Assembly: GCA_037138755.1 (NCBI GenBank)
Contig: JBAXHT010000001.1
Coordinates: forward strand, 591,805 to 655,804
Reading direction: 5' to 3'
Length of the DNA stretch: 64,000 nucleotides
From: Armatimonadota bacterium
Lineage (GTDB): Bacteria; Armatimonadota; Fimbriimonadia; Fimbriimonadales; Fimbriimonadaceae
Every line of letters begins with the position of its first letter. Position 1 is the first letter of the stretch. The notes under the pieces are model-generated. The model searched no databases, was not told the origin of the DNA, and saw nothing but the letters and a program-made list of their open reading frames with translations. Position numbers and translations under genes: made by a program. Positions 26,861-60,213 of the stretch are shown in pieces.

Positions 26861-28207
26861 ATGAATCGACGCCAATTCTTGACGATTGTTAGTTCTGCGC
26901 TAGCCAGCGGCTCGTACCCAATGTTGCCGCGAGCCGATCGCGAAGTCATCGTCATTGGGGCCGGAATCTCAGGTCTCGCTGCCGCTCAGGAGCTGCGGCG
27001 AAGCGGGTTCCGAGTAACCGTTCTGGAAGCTCGAAATCGAGTGGGAGGACGAATCTGGACCAGCACCAAGTGGGTCGATGCTCCGATGGATATGGGGGCG
27101 TCCTGGATCCATGGAGTTGAGGGGAACCCTATCACGAAGTACGCCGATTCGATCAAAGCTCGCCGGTTGAGCACCGATGCCGAGTCGTCAACCGCCTACG
27201 GCCCAGACGGGAAGGAACTAAACCAAAGCCAAGAGCGGCGTTTGGCGGCGATTCAGAAGGAGTTGGAAGCTCAACTCGAACGCGCCGAAGAGGAAGAGGG
27301 TGATCTTTCCGTGAGACAGGCGATCGCCCGATTGACAACGAAGTACAAACCTGGCTCCACTGACCGCCTTTATCTCGAGTTCCTCGTGAACTCCACTCTG
27401 GAGCACGAATACAGTGGTGCTTCGGATCAGCTCTCTGCGCATTGGCTGGGAAGTGATGAGGAGTTTGGCGGCAGTGATGTGATGTTCCTAGATGGATTCC
27501 ATACCGTGACGAACTCACTGGCCAAAGGATTGGACGTCCGCCTGGGACTGGTGGTGTCCAAGATTGATTCAAGTCAAAAGCGAGTAAGGGTCACAACTCA
27601 AAAGGGGGTTTTCGAGTCCGATCACCTGCTGATTACCTTGCCGCTTGGAGTCTTGAAATCCAATTCGGTCGAGTTCACTCCCCCACTACCGAAATCGAAA
27701 CAGGAAGCAATTGATAAGCTTCAAATGGGTGTCCTCAACAAGTGCTTCTTGCGGTTTGAAGAAGCGTTTTGGCCCGGAGACATTGATTGGATTCAACACA
27801 TCGCCGAGCTCCCTGGTCACTGGGCGGAGTGGGTAAGTTTTACGCAAGCTACGAATTTGCCAATCCTCCTCGGGTTCAACGCCGCCAAACGCGGACGCGA
27901 CATCGAGGCACTCTCGGATCGTGCGATTGTGGATGACGCGATGAAAACCCTGCGACGAATCTTCGGCCCAGCCGTGAAGAACCCGATCGACTGGCAAGTC
28001 ACCCGATGGGCAGTCGATCCCTTTTCACGGGGATCCTATTCGTTTCTCTCGCTGGGTGCAACTCCGGAGGACTTCATCCGACTTTCTAAACCTATCGGTT
28101 CGAAGCTGTTCTTTGCGGGAGAAGCCACCAATAAGGCATACTTCGGAACAACTCACGGAGCTTACTTGTCCGGCATTCGTGCTGCGAGCGAGATTCGGCG
28201 AGCTTAA
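26861..28207 (+). CDS. Flavin-containing amine oxidase, Tat-exported
   Basis: 448 residues from ATG 26861, where a twin-arginine signal (NRRQFLTI) begins. The FAD-binding VIVIGAGISGLAAAQEL (GxGxxG) and LEARNRVGGRIWT follow, and the C-terminal LFFAGEATNKAYFGTTHGAYLSG closes the FAD site. This is the layout of monoamine and polyamine oxidases and of LSD1-like enzymes. It oxidises an amine to imine with release of peroxide; the substrate is unknown. The stop overlaps the convergent gpsA stop by 4 bases. Confidence 0.9.
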   Translation: MNRRQFLTIVSSALASGSYPMLPRADREVIVIGAGISGLAAAQELRRSGFRVTVLEARNRVGGRIWTSTKWVDAPMDMGASWIHGVEGNPITKYADSIKARRLSTDAESSTAYGPDGKELNQSQERRLAAIQKELEAQLERAEEEEGDLSVRQAIARLTTKYKPGSTDRLYLEFLVNSTLEHEYSGASDQLSAHWLGSDEEFGGSDVMFLDGFHTVTNSLAKGLDVRLGLVVSKIDSSQKRVRVTTQKGVFESDHLLITLPLGVLKSNSVEFTPPLPKSKQEAIDKLQMGVLNKCFLRFEEAFWPGDIDWIQHIAELPGHWAEWVSFTQATNLPILLGFNAAKRGRDIEALSDRAIVDDAMKTLRRIFGPAVKNPIDWQVTRWAVDPFSRGSYSFLSLGATPEDFIRLSKPIGSKLFFAGEATNKAYFGTTHGAYLSGIRAASEIRRA

Positions 28208-54672: not shown

Positions 54673-55059
54673 ATGTTCATTGGTGTCATTGTCGTGATCG
54701 TCTTCGCCATGTGGAGCTACGGGCGGAAAGAGCAAGCTCGCTCCGATTCTGACTCAGCAATGGCTTCGCTTCGCCAAAAGCCGAACGACTCGACTCGATA
54801 CATTGAAGCCCTCCAAGCCGCCGACGAACTCGCTGATCGGACCCGCCCCAATAATTCGGATCGCGACACCTGGCGCCGATCCGTCCGCAATGAAGTAGAA
54901 CTTATCCGACTTCAATCCGCCAAGGCAGCACTCGCTCAGGAGAAAGAAGCCGTCGAGGCACGGCTCAGGAAACAAGCGTCTCTTTACGAGCGAACCTCAT
55001 CACACACGATGAGTTTGCAGAACGGAAGGATGAAATCCTTTGCGATGTATGATCGGTAA
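54673..55059 (+). CDS. Membrane-anchored coiled-coil hypothetical protein
   Basis: 128 residues, no family recognised. One N-terminal membrane helix (MFIGVIVVIVFAMWSYG) is followed by a charged helical region likely to form a coiled coil. It converges on the ECF sigma gene (62 bases between stops). It has no zinc-binding anti-sigma motif, so it is not an obvious anti-sigma factor. No clear ribosome site precedes the ATG. Confidence 0.5.
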   Translation: MFIGVIVVIVFAMWSYGRKEQARSDSDSAMASLRQKPNDSTRYIEALQAADELADRTRPNNSDRDTWRRSVRNEVELIRLQSAKAALAQEKEAVEARLRKQASLYERTSSHTMSLQNGRMKSFAMYDR

Positions 55060-55120: not shown

Positions 55121-55720
55121 TCAGCGAGTAGAACTCAAAGACTGGGCCACCCGGTTCGCCTCAAGTTTCGCCCTCAGAGCCTTATGGGTTCGGTGAAGGC
55201 GAGAACGAATAGTTCCGACAGGAGCACCCATCCGATCAGCGATTTCTTGGTAAGGGACCTGTTCAACGTCGGCGAGTTGGATGAGTTCGCGTTGTTCTTC
55301 GGTCAGGCTTGCCAGAGCCGCTTGGAGGGGTTCGCTGAACGAGGAGTCAAGGAGGACGTCTTCGGGCGAAGGACCGTCGTCGGCGACTTCGAAGCGCATC
55401 GAGTCTCCACCGACTTCCGTTGGAAGTGAGGCATCGTAGGAGACGGTCTGCACTCGGCGTCGTCGATTGCGAAGAAGGTCGAGATACAAGCGAGTGACGA
55501 TTCGGAAGATCCAGTTCTCGAATGGACGGTCGCCCTCGTACTCATTAAACGATCGGTACGCTCGGAAGTAAGCCTCCTGGGTCAGATCTTCAGCGTCTGG
55601 CCGACTGCCCGAGAGCCGGTAAGCCATGTTGTAAACCTTCCGATACGTTTGCTCCATCAGTTCGTTGAACCGCTTCGAGTCACTTTCGCTAGCATTCAGG
55701 GTCATGTTCATGGTCGTCAT
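55121..55720 (-). CDS. ECF-type RNA polymerase sigma factor
   Basis: 199 residues. Region 2 (DLTQEAYFRAYRSF...WIFRIVTRLYLDLLR) binds the -10 element. Region 4 (LTEEQRELIQLADVEQVPYQEIADRMGAPVGTIRSRLHR, split here at QLADV) carries the -35-binding HTH. Length is that of group 4 sigma factors. No anti-sigma gene is adjacent. AAGGAG lies 11 nt before the ATG. A GGAAC-N17-CGTT element 30 bases upstream suggests that it transcribes its own gene. Confidence 0.93.
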   Translation of the reverse strand: MTTMNMTLNASESDSKRFNELMEQTYRKVYNMAYRLSGSRPDAEDLTQEAYFRAYRSFNEYEGDRPFENWIFRIVTRLYLDLLRNRRRRVQTVSYDASLPTEVGGDSMRFEVADDGPSPEDVLLDSSFSEPLQAALASLTEEQRELIQLADVEQVPYQEIADRMGAPVGTIRSRLHRTHKALRAKLEANRVAQSLSSTR

Positions 55721-55750
55721 TTTCAGGTTTTCTCCTTGTATGTAAGGTGT

Positions 55751-55776
55751 AACGCTTCACTCGGCAAAACCGTTCC
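55751..55776 (-). promoter_or_regulatory. ECF-type promoter motif GGAAC-N17-CGTT (autoregulation)
   Basis: On the minus strand GGAAC (55776-55772) and CGTT (55754-55751) are 17 bases apart, the usual form of ECF sigma promoters. It lies just upstream of the sigma gene. The same motif with identical spacing occurs at 57064-57089. Confidence 0.65.
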
Positions 55777-55821
55777 ATGTATTTTACACTTTTTGTGTGA
55801 AGTCACTTGAGTCTATTGGAC

Positions 55822-56739
55822 TCAATCGTCCGAAATCCCCCCGCCCGTCGGATTGAACTTCTCATACCCTGAGGGCAAAGTGAACGGACGTTTTGGCTCG
55901 AAGAACCGCCAGGCCGATTGGCAGATCCTGCGGAGGGTCACTTCGCCTTCGTTCTCGGAGGTCCAACGCTGGTCCTTCTGGTCGTCGGTGTACAAAGCTA
56001 AGGCATAGGGTCGAGAAGCATAAACAATCGCCACCTCGCTTCGCGAGCGGTTGATGGCTCCGCTCTTGGCGCAGACCTTCACGTCGATCGGTGAGGCGGC
56101 GATGGCGATGTCGTCCCAATACTGCCTGCCCAGAATGCGAAGGAGTTTCTCGCAGACGGCTGGGCTCGCGGCCTTGCGGCGATAGAGCAATTCAAAGAGG
56201 CGAACCTGTTCGCGCGGGGTGGTCATGCCCCAGCCCCACTTTTTGCCTAGCTCGGCGGTTTCAGGAGTTCGGTCCTTCCAGTGCCCGAGAATCTGGGTGT
56301 TAAGGAGCCCCAGCGACGCCATACGCTCGTTGATCTTCTTGCTACCAATCCAATCCTGAACCTGCATTGTGGCGGTGTTGTCGCTCACCCCGATCATCAG
56401 GTTCACGTAGCCATCGAGATCCAGCGAAACTCCTTCGCGCATCGGGTAAGTCCACATGCTTGACTGTCTTTCCTTCAGGGGCATCAGTTGCTTCTTGTCT
56501 GACATCTTGAGTTTGCCTTCATCCACTTGGCAAAGAGCTTCGAGCGCGACGCTGGTTTTTATCGTTGATGCACTCGGAAATCGCTCAGTGCCCCGGAGAT
56601 CGATACGCTCGCCCGTGGATAGATCGGCAATGCAGTAGCCGATGCGACCCTGAAAAGGTTTGCAGAGTGCATCTAGCTCGACTTTTAGCGCAGGAAGCCC
56701 TTTGGGAGCAAGAACGAGAGCGGCGACGACGGGAACCAT
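55822..56739 (-). CDS. Class A beta-lactamase-like serine hydrolase
   Basis: 305 residues from ATG 56739; the frame extends to 56841, but a terminator and TATGAT 6 nt upstream fix the start. A short signal-like N-terminus (MVPVVAALVLAPKGLPA) precedes S58-T-I-K61 (SxxK), S119-D-N121 (SDN) and K225-S-G227 (KTG-like). A possible Glu166 equivalent lies in PETAEL but is uncertain. Class A enzymes hydrolyse penicillins; chromosomal relatives may act on cell-wall peptides. Confidence 0.88.
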   Translation of the reverse strand: MVPVVAALVLAPKGLPALKVELDALCKPFQGRIGYCIADLSTGERIDLRGTERFPSASTIKTSVALEALCQVDEGKLKMSDKKQLMPLKERQSSMWTYPMREGVSLDLDGYVNLMIGVSDNTATMQVQDWIGSKKINERMASLGLLNTQILGHWKDRTPETAELGKKWGWGMTTPREQVRLFELLYRRKAASPAVCEKLLRILGRQYWDDIAIAASPIDVKVCAKSGAINRSRSEVAIVYASRPYALALYTDDQKDQRWTSENEGEVTLRRICQSAWRFFEPKRPFTLPSGYEKFNPTGGGISDD

Positions 56740-56745
56740 ACGGTT

Positions 56746-56751
56746 ATCATA
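56746..56751 (-). promoter_or_regulatory. -10-like hexamer TATGAT, leaderless start of beta-lactamase gene
   Basis: TATGAT on the minus strand lies exactly 6 nt before ATG 56739 and directly after the terminator of the upstream small gene. Confidence 0.6.
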
Positions 56752-56754
56752 ACC

Positions 56755-56787
56755 AAAAACTCCCGACCGCTTTCGCGGATCGGGAGT
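56755..56787 (-). terminator. Rho-independent terminator of the small ORF
   Basis: Minus-strand stem ACTCCCGA / TCGGGAGT plus an inner CCGC/GCGG stem (one bulged base), GAAA loop, and a TTTTT tail. It ends a transcript coming from above 56790, where the only candidate is the 55-codon ORF. Confidence 0.85.
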
Positions 56788-56797
56788 AAGTTCTGGT

Positions 56798-56965
56798 TCA
56801 GCCGCGCCATCTCCACATGGGTGAGAAGACGGCGTTGCCAAGTTCGTCCATCTGGTCCACGAAGCTTGCCCTTTCAGCGCGCTTCGGGAGCGCGAAGCGT
56901 ATCACTCGCTTCATCGGTTTTGGCAACACCAGATAGGTGCGGCGCATCAATGTTGTAACGACCAT
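56798..56965 (-). CDS. Small basic protein, 55 aa, in its own transcription unit
   Basis: Not a recognised family. AAGGAGG lies 4 nt before the ATG, the strongest ribosome site in the window. The N-terminal half is basic (MRRTYLVLPKPMKRVIRFAL) and the C-terminal half is acidic then Trp/Arg-rich (FVDQMDELGN, MWRWRG). There is no signal peptide or membrane helix. An ECF promoter motif (57064-57089), a ~90-nt leader with a hairpin and a strong terminator frame it. It is probably a target of the nearby ECF sigma factor; its function is unknown. Confidence 0.7.
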   Translation of the reverse strand: MVVTTLMRRTYLVLPKPMKRVIRFALPKRAERASFVDQMDELGNAVFSPMWRWRG

Positions 56966-57008
56966 AAAACCTCCTTATAGTCGAGGTGCCAATGTCCTTG
57001 GCTTTTGG

Positions 57009-57030
57009 ACTGGACGAAGCATTGTCCAGT
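57009..57030 (-). other. Leader hairpin upstream of the small ORF
   Basis: A 7-bp inverted repeat ACTGGAC / GTCCAGT with an 8-nt loop lies in the predicted leader between the ECF promoter motif and the small ORF. It could be a stabilising or regulatory element; no T-run follows it. Confidence 0.4.
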
Positions 57031-57063
57031 TGTCCTGGCTCATCAGCGAGCCTACTTTCTTTC

Positions 57064-57089
57064 TACGATGAGGACCACAAGTGCGTTCC
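57064..57089 (-). promoter_or_regulatory. ECF-type promoter motif GGAAC-N17-CGTA of the small ORF
   Basis: On the minus strand GGAAC (57089-57085) and CGTA (57067-57064) are 17 bases apart, the same spacing as the motif before the sigma gene. It sits just after the end of the response regulator gene. Confidence 0.6.
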
Positions 57090-57109
57090 TCAGATAAGAT
57101 TATGGCTGA

Positions 57110-58294
57110 TCAGGCGGCTTTCTGAACCCGCTCGGGGAGAAGCTTAACTTCCAGTTCTGTGGCAGAACTTGGTGCGAGCACCATGGCTCGCTCAACCGTG
57201 TTCTCGAGTTCTCGCACATTACCGGGCCAGTAGTAGTGCTCCAAGGCCTCTCGGGCTTGCGGGCCGATTGCCAATGGTTCACGCTGATTCTCAGCCGCGA
57301 ATTTGTGCATAAACATCTCAGCGAGGGGGACGATATCCTCAATTCGCTCCCTTAGAGCCGGTATTTTGATCTCTACAACTTGGAGTCGGTAAAGCAGGTC
57401 AAGTCGGAACGTGCCCGCGTCCACTGCGGCGTTGAGGTCTCTGTGAGTAGCGGTGACTAATCTCACGTCAATCTTGGTTGGCTTTGTCGATCCAAGTCTC
57501 TCGATCTCTCTTTCTTGCAAGACTCGCAGGAGTTTGACCTGGACCGTGTGAGGGATTTCTCCAATTTCGTCAAGGAAAAGGGTTCCTTGTTCGGCAGCTT
57601 CGAAGCGTCCAACTTTGGAGCCGTTTGCACCGGTGAACGCGCCCTTTTCGTATCCGAAGAGTTCCGATTCAAGCAGTGTTTCAGGGAGCGCGGCGCAACT
57701 CACGGCAACGAACGGTTTCTTCGCTCGGCCGCTCAGCGTGTGCAGAGCGTTGGCGACAACTTCCTTTCCAACACCACTTTCGCCTCCGATCATGATCGTT
57801 GCTCGCGAGTCGGCGACTTGCTTGACGGTCTCCAGCACCTGGCGCATCGAATCGGAAACGGCCAAAAACGGCTCGCCACCAAGAGCACTTTTCTTTGCTT
57901 TGCGCACCTGCTTCTTGGGCTCGTTGCCTTGGTCAATCGCGCTTGCAACCACCTTTTTGAGCTGCTCTAAATCGAATGGTTTTGTGATGTACTCAAATGC
58001 CCCATTTCGGATGGCGGCCACAGCTTGAGGAATCGTTCCGAAGGCGGTCATGATGATGACGGGAATCTCAGGAGCCGCTTCATTAATGAGTCGTTGGAGT
58101 TCGTAGCCCGTCATTCCGGGCATGGTGACGTCAGTGATGACGGCGTCGAAGCGCTGCTTCTCTAGCTCCATGAGCGCGTTTCTCCCATCTTCTGCGGTTA
58201 CAGCGTCATATCCGACTTTCTCGAAAGCCATCTGCAAGATGCGGCGAATGTTCAGTTCGTCGTCTACGATCAGGATCTGGGGTTTCTTGCTCAT
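57110..58294 (-). CDS. NtrC-family response regulator lacking a DNA-binding domain
   Basis: 394 residues. A receiver domain with phospho-acceptor Asp55 (ITDVTMPG) leads to a sigma-54-activating AAA+ ATPase: GESGVGKE Walker A at 171-178, GAFTGA loop at 218-223 (contacts sigma-54), LFLDEIGE Walker B. The protein stops soon after the ATPase lid (PERVQKAA), so the C-terminal Fis-type HTH of most NtrC proteins is missing. It would have to activate from solution or bind DNA through a partner. It overlaps the kinase gene by ATGA. Confidence 0.93.
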   Translation of the reverse strand: MSKKPQILIVDDELNIRRILQMAFEKVGYDAVTAEDGRNALMELEKQRFDAVITDVTMPGMTGYELQRLINEAAPEIPVIIMTAFGTIPQAVAAIRNGAFEYITKPFDLEQLKKVVASAIDQGNEPKKQVRKAKKSALGGEPFLAVSDSMRQVLETVKQVADSRATIMIGGESGVGKEVVANALHTLSGRAKKPFVAVSCAALPETLLESELFGYEKGAFTGANGSKVGRFEAAEQGTLFLDEIGEIPHTVQVKLLRVLQEREIERLGSTKPTKIDVRLVTATHRDLNAAVDAGTFRLDLLYRLQVVEIKIPALRERIEDIVPLAEMFMHKFAAENQREPLAIGPQAREALEHYYWPGNVRELENTVERAMVLAPSSATELEVKLLPERVQKAA

Positions 58295-59454
58295 GCGGCT
58301 TCTTCGTAATTATCGGCAAACTGAACCCGAAAGCTGGAGCCTTCACCGACTTTTGAATCGACAACAATGGCTCCCGCGTGAGCAGAGATGATCTTTTGGC
58401 AGTTACTGAGTCCGAGTCCTGTACCTTTGGGTTTGCTCGTGAAGAACGGCTGGAAGAGCTTGGAGAGCGTTTCTGTGTCCATTCCGCTCCCTGTGTCGCT
58501 GACCGAAAATCCCCGTGGAAGAATCTGAATGGTCACGGCGCCACCCGAGTTAGTAGCTTGCAAGGCATTGAGCATCAGATTCTGCATTACCCGTTCAATC
58601 TGGTGCCGGTCTCCAAGAACTGGGGTAGAGTCGCCAAAGATCCTGAGCTCGACGGATGACTCCCAAAACTCGTGTTGGTGGATCTCGCGCAGCTTAGTGG
58701 CGATGACGAAGAGGTCAACCGGACCAAAGTTGGGCTCAATTGGTCTCGCGAAATCGAGAAATTGATTGCACAACTCGGAGAGCTTTACTGCCTCTTCTTC
58801 GACCATGTGGGCGAGTTCCACCGCCTGGTCTGGCATCGAGACGATGAGCTGGGCTGCCGACCTGATTCCGGTGAGCGGATTTTTGATCTCGTGAGCAATT
58901 GCAGCGGTCATCTGACCAATTTCGGCGAGCCTTCGCACCCGGTTAACTTCTTTCATGTCTCCGAGGTGTTTCCAGTTCGCGACGGCAAGTGAAATGTTTC
59001 GGGCGAGGGTGTTCGCCTTTTTGAGGTCGTGCTCGTCGAACGGTAGGTCCTGATCTCTCCGGGCGAGGTTAAGAACACCAAGTTTTTCATGCGAAGTCGT
59101 GAGTGGAACAACCATCGCCGAGGAGATTTCCTTTCGTGTCTGCTGAATCCGGTTCGCAAGGAGCGGGTTGTCCGACGGATCTTCGACGAGCATTGGGAGG
59201 CCGTGCAAAAGGGCAGAGCCAGCAATTCCCTTGCCAACCTCAATCACCGCGGTTTCGGCAACCGGAACTCCGACCGATGCCCGGCACCGTATTGTCCCTT
59301 TCTCGTCGGCAACAAAGAGTGAAGCTACCGGAGCATCAAACCACTCTGCAACGCGTTGGAGAATGGTGTCCAAGTACTCCTCAATCCGATCGCCGTCCAA
59401 CGGCGGAAAATCAAAGAGCGACCATAGGTCTGGCATAGATTGAGGACGACTCAC
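58291..59454 (-). CDS. GAF-domain sensor histidine kinase
   Basis: 387 residues from a GTG. Residues ~25-165 form a GAF sensor domain. His188 in AAIAHEIKNPLTG is the phosphorylation site. The HATPase domain has NLMLNALQAT, VSDTGSGM and GTGLGLSNC. No membrane helix is present, so it senses a cytoplasmic signal. It pairs with the downstream sigma-54 response regulator (ATGA overlap). GATAAC 6 nt upstream supports the GTG start. Confidence 0.94.
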   Translation of the reverse strand: MSRPQSMPDLWSLFDFPPLDGDRIEEYLDTILQRVAEWFDAPVASLFVADEKGTIRCRASVGVPVAETAVIEVGKGIAGSALLHGLPMLVEDPSDNPLLANRIQQTRKEISSAMVVPLTTSHEKLGVLNLARRDQDLPFDEHDLKKANTLARNISLAVANWKHLGDMKEVNRVRRLAEIGQMTAAIAHEIKNPLTGIRSAAQLIVSMPDQAVELAHMVEEEAVKLSELCNQFLDFARPIEPNFGPVDLFVIATKLREIHQHEFWESSVELRIFGDSTPVLGDRHQIERVMQNLMLNALQATNSGGAVTIQILPRGFSVSDTGSGMDTETLSKLFQPFFTSKPKGTGLGLSNCQKIISAHAGAIVVDSKVGEGSSFRVQFADNYEEAA

Positions 59455-59860: not shown

Positions 59861-60213
59861 TGGTGGAGGCGGGGAGAATTGAACTCCCTTCCAAAACCGC
59901 CTTCCCAGCATTACCACGAGCGTCTTCTCAGTTTGGATTTTTGTGATGCGCCTCTGCCGAGACCGCCTAGCGCACCCTTAGTCCGATTGTGTTTAGCTGG
60001 GTCTACTACGAACAGAAGCTCGCCCTAGCGATCCAGATTTGGCTACACGAGGATCAGTTCTTACTGGCTCAGAACTGGCTCATGCGCGGCACTTAGGCTG
60101 CGAATGCAAAGTTATTGTTTGCAGTTATTTTTTACTCGTTTTTTACGTGGCCAACGAGAATCCACGGCTCGCAACGATGAGTCGCTTCGGTCCTGTCGAA
60201 CCCTGACGCCCCC
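59861..60213 (-). ncRNA. ssrA: Transfer-messenger RNA (tmRNA)
   Basis: 353 nt. The ends form a 7-bp tRNA-like acceptor (GGGGGCG with CGCCTCC, one G-T pair) followed by A and an encoded CCA. The T arm GGGAG-TTCAATT-CTCCC is perfect. The resume codon GCA at 60122 opens a tag frame ending at TAA (60093) that encodes ANNNFAFAA. Stalled ribosomes are rescued and the tag marks the product for proteolysis. A TTTTTGTT run follows the CCA. It is the one-piece form; smpB is not in the window. Confidence 0.96.

Follow-up and report, generated by a model that had tools for sequence, protein, structure and literature searches.

Genes and elements at the locus

The window analysed here, a 64,000-nucleotide stretch of an Armatimonadota genome, carries a stress-type (ECF) sigma factor gene, a beta-lactamase-like gene, a small gene with a structured leader and a two-component pair. 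The features are listed below in order of coordinate, all on the minus strand, with the evidence for each in brackets.

55121–55720, minus: gene for an ECF sigma factor of 199 aa with sigma regions 2 and 4 (Pfam, NCBIfam)
55732–55737, minus: Shine-Dalgarno AAGGAG of the sigma gene (sequence)
55751–55776, minus: predicted autoregulatory ECF-type promoter (−35 GGAAC 55772–55776, −10 CGTT 55751–55754)
55822–56739, minus: class A beta-lactamase-like gene, flanked by the sigma gene and the small gene (Pfam Beta-lactamase2, 1.7e-46; genus distribution)
56755–56786, minus: hairpin and T run resembling an intrinsic terminator, downstream of the small gene (read from sequence)
56798–56965, minus: gene for a small basic protein of 55 aa, undescribed family (dN versus dS; homologs in 23 genomes)
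56970–56976, minus: Shine-Dalgarno AAGGAGG of the small gene (sequence; conserved)
56988–57052, minus: structured 5' leader of three hairpins (covariation, fold z)
56988–57002, minus: leader hairpin 3, loop GGACA
57009–57030, minus: leader hairpin 2
57037–57052, minus: leader hairpin 1
57064–57089, minus: predicted ECF-type promoter of the small gene (−35 GGAAC 57085–57089, −10 CGTA 57064–57067)
57099–57126, minus: older sigma-70-type promoter TTCAGA-16-CATAAT, displaced upstream (comparison with relatives)
57110–58294, minus: NtrC-type sigma-54 activator gene, conserved upstream neighbour (Pfam Response_reg, Sigma54_activat)
58291–59454, minus: sensor histidine kinase gene (GAF, HisKA, HATPase), adjoining the NtrC-type gene (domain search)

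Both GGAAC-N17-CGT elements of the preliminary description were found where it had placed them, each with a spacer of 17 bases. The order that it gave also holds, with 55751–55776 preceding the ECF sigma gene and 57064–57089 the 55-codon ORF. The minus strand reads GGAAC-GGTTTTGCCGAGTGAAG-CGTT at the former and GGAAC-GCACTTGTGGTCCTCAT-CGTA at the latter. The sigma-gene element ends 30 bases upstream of the sigma ATG (55720) and the small-ORF element 98 bases upstream of its ORF (56798–56965).

The two-component system is a conserved neighbour of the sigma gene, and a same-strand NtrC-type gene lies upstream of sigma orthologs in other genera too. Also in the window are a tmRNA gene with the tag ANNNFAFAA (59861–60213, minus) and, on the plus strand, a 128-aa ORF with no Pfam match (54673–55059). 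The beta-lactamase-like gene looks leaderless: its ATG comes about 6 bases after a TATGAT-like box (56739–56760, minus), which directly follows the small gene's terminator. The G013 counterpart has TAAAAT similarly close to the start. The window's beta-lactamase-like gene was rejected as a target of the sigma factor, there being no ECF motif before the gene.

The sigma factor and its own promoter

The sigma protein has sigma regions 2 and 4 only (Pfam Sigma70_r2, 4e-17; Sigma70_r4_2, 1e-15) and matches the NCBIfam sigma70-ECF superfamily above cut-off, placing it in the ECF group (group 4). Of 101 related genomes, 95 have a matching gene (E ≤ 1e-30). Conservation across the order strongly supports an AAC −35 and CGT −10 promoter before the sigma gene itself: GGAAC-N17-YGTY lies upstream in 39 of 61 orthologs, and every other spacing from 10 to 24 occurred at most four times in the same 61 regions. 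In an initial subset of 30 orthologs, the exact motif was present upstream on the right strand in 23, against 0.06 in shuffles and none on the reverse strand. Many of the remaining orthologs carry GGAAC-N17-NGTY or an 18-base spacer, and one (G076) is preceded by GGAAC-N17-CGTA, the same −10 as at the small ORF. These comparisons make it very probable that the sigma gene is autoregulated from its GGAAC-N17-CGTT promoter, with a predicted start near 55744.

A co-transcribed anti-sigma factor is typical of ECF sigma factors but not universal. The preliminary description had remarked that none is adjacent here, and the domain search bore this out, returning no anti-sigma domain among the window neighbours of the sigma gene and thus no co-transcribed anti-sigma factor at the window locus. 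Among the downstream ORFs of 30 sigma orthologs, none was recognised by eye as an anti-sigma gene.

Published hallmarks of ECF sigma factors are an AAC −35, a CGT −10 and positive autoregulation (PMC8103513). The window gene resembles such autoregulated factors in its sigma regions 2 and 4 only, in its AAC and CGT elements and in the autoregulation implied by its own promoter, but differs in that no co-transcribed anti-sigma gene occurs in the window or was recognised in the relatives inspected (PMC8103513). In Bacillus thuringiensis, sigmaP/RsiP controls beta-lactam resistance (PMC8844934, PMC8791391). As in that system, the ECF sigma gene of the window lies close to a gene of class A beta-lactamase type; here, however, this gene lacks an ECF motif and the sigma gene has no anti-sigma neighbour, so that the likeness is positional only. 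A literature search returned no paper combining 'Armatimonadetes' with 'ECF sigma'.

By itself the bare motif tells little. GGAAC-N17-CGTW matched three times in the window against 1.15 expected, and at least three matches were seen in 12 of 100 shuffles. Across the 3.27-Mb genome it matched 49 times against 65 for a reversed-pattern control, or about 7.5e-6 per stranded position (49 hits in 2 x 3.27 Mb). The looser GGAAC-N16-17-CGTW gave 106 matches against 142 for its control, and neither pattern was enriched. The preliminary description had named such a lack of enrichment in a genome scan as telling against its regulon, and for the bare motif that is what the scan returned; the genome-wide count was dropped as proof of a regulon for this reason. 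Two copies alone are therefore weak, and significance can come only from comparison with relatives. The comparative footprints nevertheless outweigh the missing enrichment of the bare motif. Two other window matches were set aside: the third, at 2089–2114, lies opposite coding sequence and is absent from the G001 and G016 sites, and a GGAAC-N17-TGTC match at 28145–28170 is absent from those of G016.

Sites shared by the window genome (G000) and its sister species G001 and G016 were compared. By inspection, three face a gene and lie outside coding sequence: one before the sigma gene, one before the small gene and one before the gene of a 173-aa exported protein (G000:C1:58504-59022, genome coordinates), which is a third candidate target. 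The exported-protein site and its nearby flank are identical in the three genomes; G010 has GGAAC-N17-TGTC before its homolog, and other homologs are without a site. The exported protein gave weak NlpE and lipocalin-like domain matches, below cut-off. A stretch with GGAACCATCAATCGTAACCTATCGTT, about 70 bases before the gene, is nearly unchanged in all three species (L163–L165), and the exported proteins of the sister species are only 70–83% identical to that of the window genome despite this near-unchanged upstream stretch. Where the context of the other shared sites was read, they fall within coding sequence, face away from a gene (L151–L153) or form a hairpin at the start of a prepilin gene (L158, L160); a few further sites were judged coding from codon-like changes only.

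The small gene, its leader and its promoter

Among the window genome, G001 and G016, the 55-codon ORF has a dN of 0.09–0.10 against a dS of 0.7–1.2. As dN is far below dS, the ORF is under selection as a protein and is a real gene. It occurs in 19 of the 20 genomes of the genus and in four outside it (23 in total), with homologs of 55–67 aa. Identity is 85–87% in G001 and G016 and 31–53% in G010, G002, G009, G003 and G006. More divergent homologs of the same architecture precede the beta-lactamase-like gene in G011, G013, G014, G015 and G019, and a wider profile added G004, G005, G007, G008, G017 and G018. The protein matches no Pfam or NCBIfam family and has no recognisable anti-sigma domain in either collection. 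Its predicted structure is poor (pLDDT 61); the 55-aa protein is modelled alone too poorly for the structure to serve as a search query. A single-protein search of named genomes returned one relative, from an uncultured Armatimonadetes bin, and a Streptomyces hit that was judged spurious. The hairpin and T run after the gene recur in G001 and G016, and similar ones follow most other homologs.

The leader covaries as a structure. Across eight sequences, 95% of cells were paired and 5 pairs had changed on both sides, compared with 14–39% paired in slid controls. The fold z was −3.5 for the window copy and less strong for the other copies. The leader has no Rfam match and does not qualify as a known riboswitch or cis-regulatory RNA; confident matches to its model were confined to the genus. 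The GGACA loop of hairpin 3 (56988–57002) is kept in the eight leaders and resembles GGA-loop RNA-binding sites. Binding of CsrA to this loop was considered; divergent leaders do not retain the loop.

Comparison of the upstream DNA points to a change of promoter. In G010, G002, G009, G003 and G006, counted from the ATG, the first base of a sigma-70-type −10 (CATAAT, TACAAT or TAAAAT) falls at −98 to −104 and that of hairpin 1 at −85 to −89. In the window genome, G001 and G016, CGTA starts at −102 and hairpin 1 at −87 or −88. The CGTA thus stands in register with the relatives' −10 box, and the ECF-type site appears to replace that promoter. The old CATAAT lies at −139 in these three loci, mutated to CATCAT in G016. 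Most of the divergent homologs also have TATAAT-like boxes, some of them farther from hairpin 1. GGAAC-N17-CGTA is kept before the small gene in G001 and G016 at the synonymous divergence given above, and GGAAC-N17-CGT was absent from the other homologs whose upstream DNA was inspected. The spacer part GGTCCTC is conserved as well, so something else may bind there.

This second promoter is probably real but recent, and it is likely that the small-ORF site works as an ECF promoter, with a predicted start near 57057. The 'ECF sigma mini-regulon' of the preliminary description therefore survives in part. Sigma autoregulation stands on ortholog conservation and the small-ORF motif stands as a promoter in three sister species only, but the small gene does not look like a conserved regulon member, given the sigma-70-type promoter in the other homologs inspected.

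A candidate feedback circuit and its alternatives

On balance we favour, as the best explanation of the whole, a self-transcribing sigma factor with a small gene newly under an ECF-type promoter. An ECF sigma factor without an adjacent anti-sigma gene would transcribe its own gene from GGAAC-N17-CGTT. The small ORF would form a separate one-gene transcript comprising promoter, three-hairpin leader, strong ribosome-binding site, protein and terminator. In most relatives a sigma-70-type promoter would start this transcript just before hairpin 1. In the window lineage a segment with GGAAC-N17-CGTA would have been gained at the old promoter spot, and the same transcript would now be started by an ECF-type holoenzyme, most likely that of this sigma. 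The small protein may tune how this sigma, or the neighbouring kinase/NtrC pathway, responds; the new promoter before its gene would then close a feedback loop.

That the small-ORF site is read by this same sigma seems reasonably probable. The site could instead be a working ECF promoter read by another ECF sigma of the genome, which holds further ECF-type candidates (23 at first look, 3 at E ≤ 1e-30), and GGAAC is common to the promoters of many ECF groups. The −10 is CGTA here and CGTT at the sigma gene, and the context outside the core differs. However, the spacing of 17 and the CGT core are those of this sigma's own promoter, the genes are adjacent and the CGTA variant precedes the G076 sigma ortholog. 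We consider this alternative rather unlikely.

The role of the small protein is less firmly placed. The preliminary description had offered it as a possible regulator of the sigma factor, for which the support is circumstantial: by match coordinates, 13 of 23 genomes have no more than about 3 kb between the small gene and the sigma gene, and in several the small gene stands directly between the NtrC-type and sigma genes. Outside the genus it lies upstream of the sigma gene, between it and the NtrC-type gene, in G034, G059, G025 and G054. Most sigma orthologs outside the genus have no detectable small gene nearby, so it cannot be an obligatory partner. The two genes are long-standing neighbours, which makes modulation of the sigma or of the kinase/NtrC pathway the likeliest role; any such action of the small protein is nonetheless a tentative proposal.

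Alternatively, the small gene may be functionally tied to the histidine kinase/NtrC pair, its linkage to the sigma gene being hitch-hiking in an NtrC–small gene–sigma cluster. The gene immediately upstream of the small gene is of NtrC type in G000, G001, G016, G002, G009 and G006, and also in G034, G017 and G054. In G014, G015, G011, G013 and G019, by contrast, the small gene precedes the beta-lactamase-like gene, and the 650 bases inspected showed no recognisable NtrC end. The window itself gave no sigma-54-type site for the NtrC neighbour. The tie seems to us improbable.

Least probable is a chance match at the small ORF, with the sigma autoregulated and the small gene read from the upstream CATAAT as in relatives: the motif is not enriched genome-wide, CATAAT is retained in two of the three species (in the window genome, with TTCAGA across a 16-base spacer) and the rest of the family uses sigma-70-type promoters, but the exact site is kept in three species despite high synonymous divergence and sits in register before hairpin 1, CATAAT has decayed in G016, and the leader would be about 36 bases longer in this lineage only.

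Autoregulation of the sigma factor is ordinary; the novelty lies in the exchange of promoters and in the small gene with its leader. The arrangement favoured above suggests a small, recently wired feedback circuit in the window bacterium and its two closest relatives. A bolder and doubtful extension is that the small proteins form a new class of modulators of the sigma or its pathway, under post-transcriptional control by the three-hairpin leader, and that one lineage swapped a housekeeping promoter in register for the sigma's own, which would turn a constitutive gene into a feedback partner with its leader untouched. From the conserved promoter, the DNA specificity of this sigma can be predicted directly as GGAAC-N17-YGTY. 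The small gene is a clean example of a promoter being replaced in register ahead of a structured leader that is itself conserved. It is also a candidate answer to the question of how an ECF sigma factor lacking an anti-sigma neighbour is restrained.
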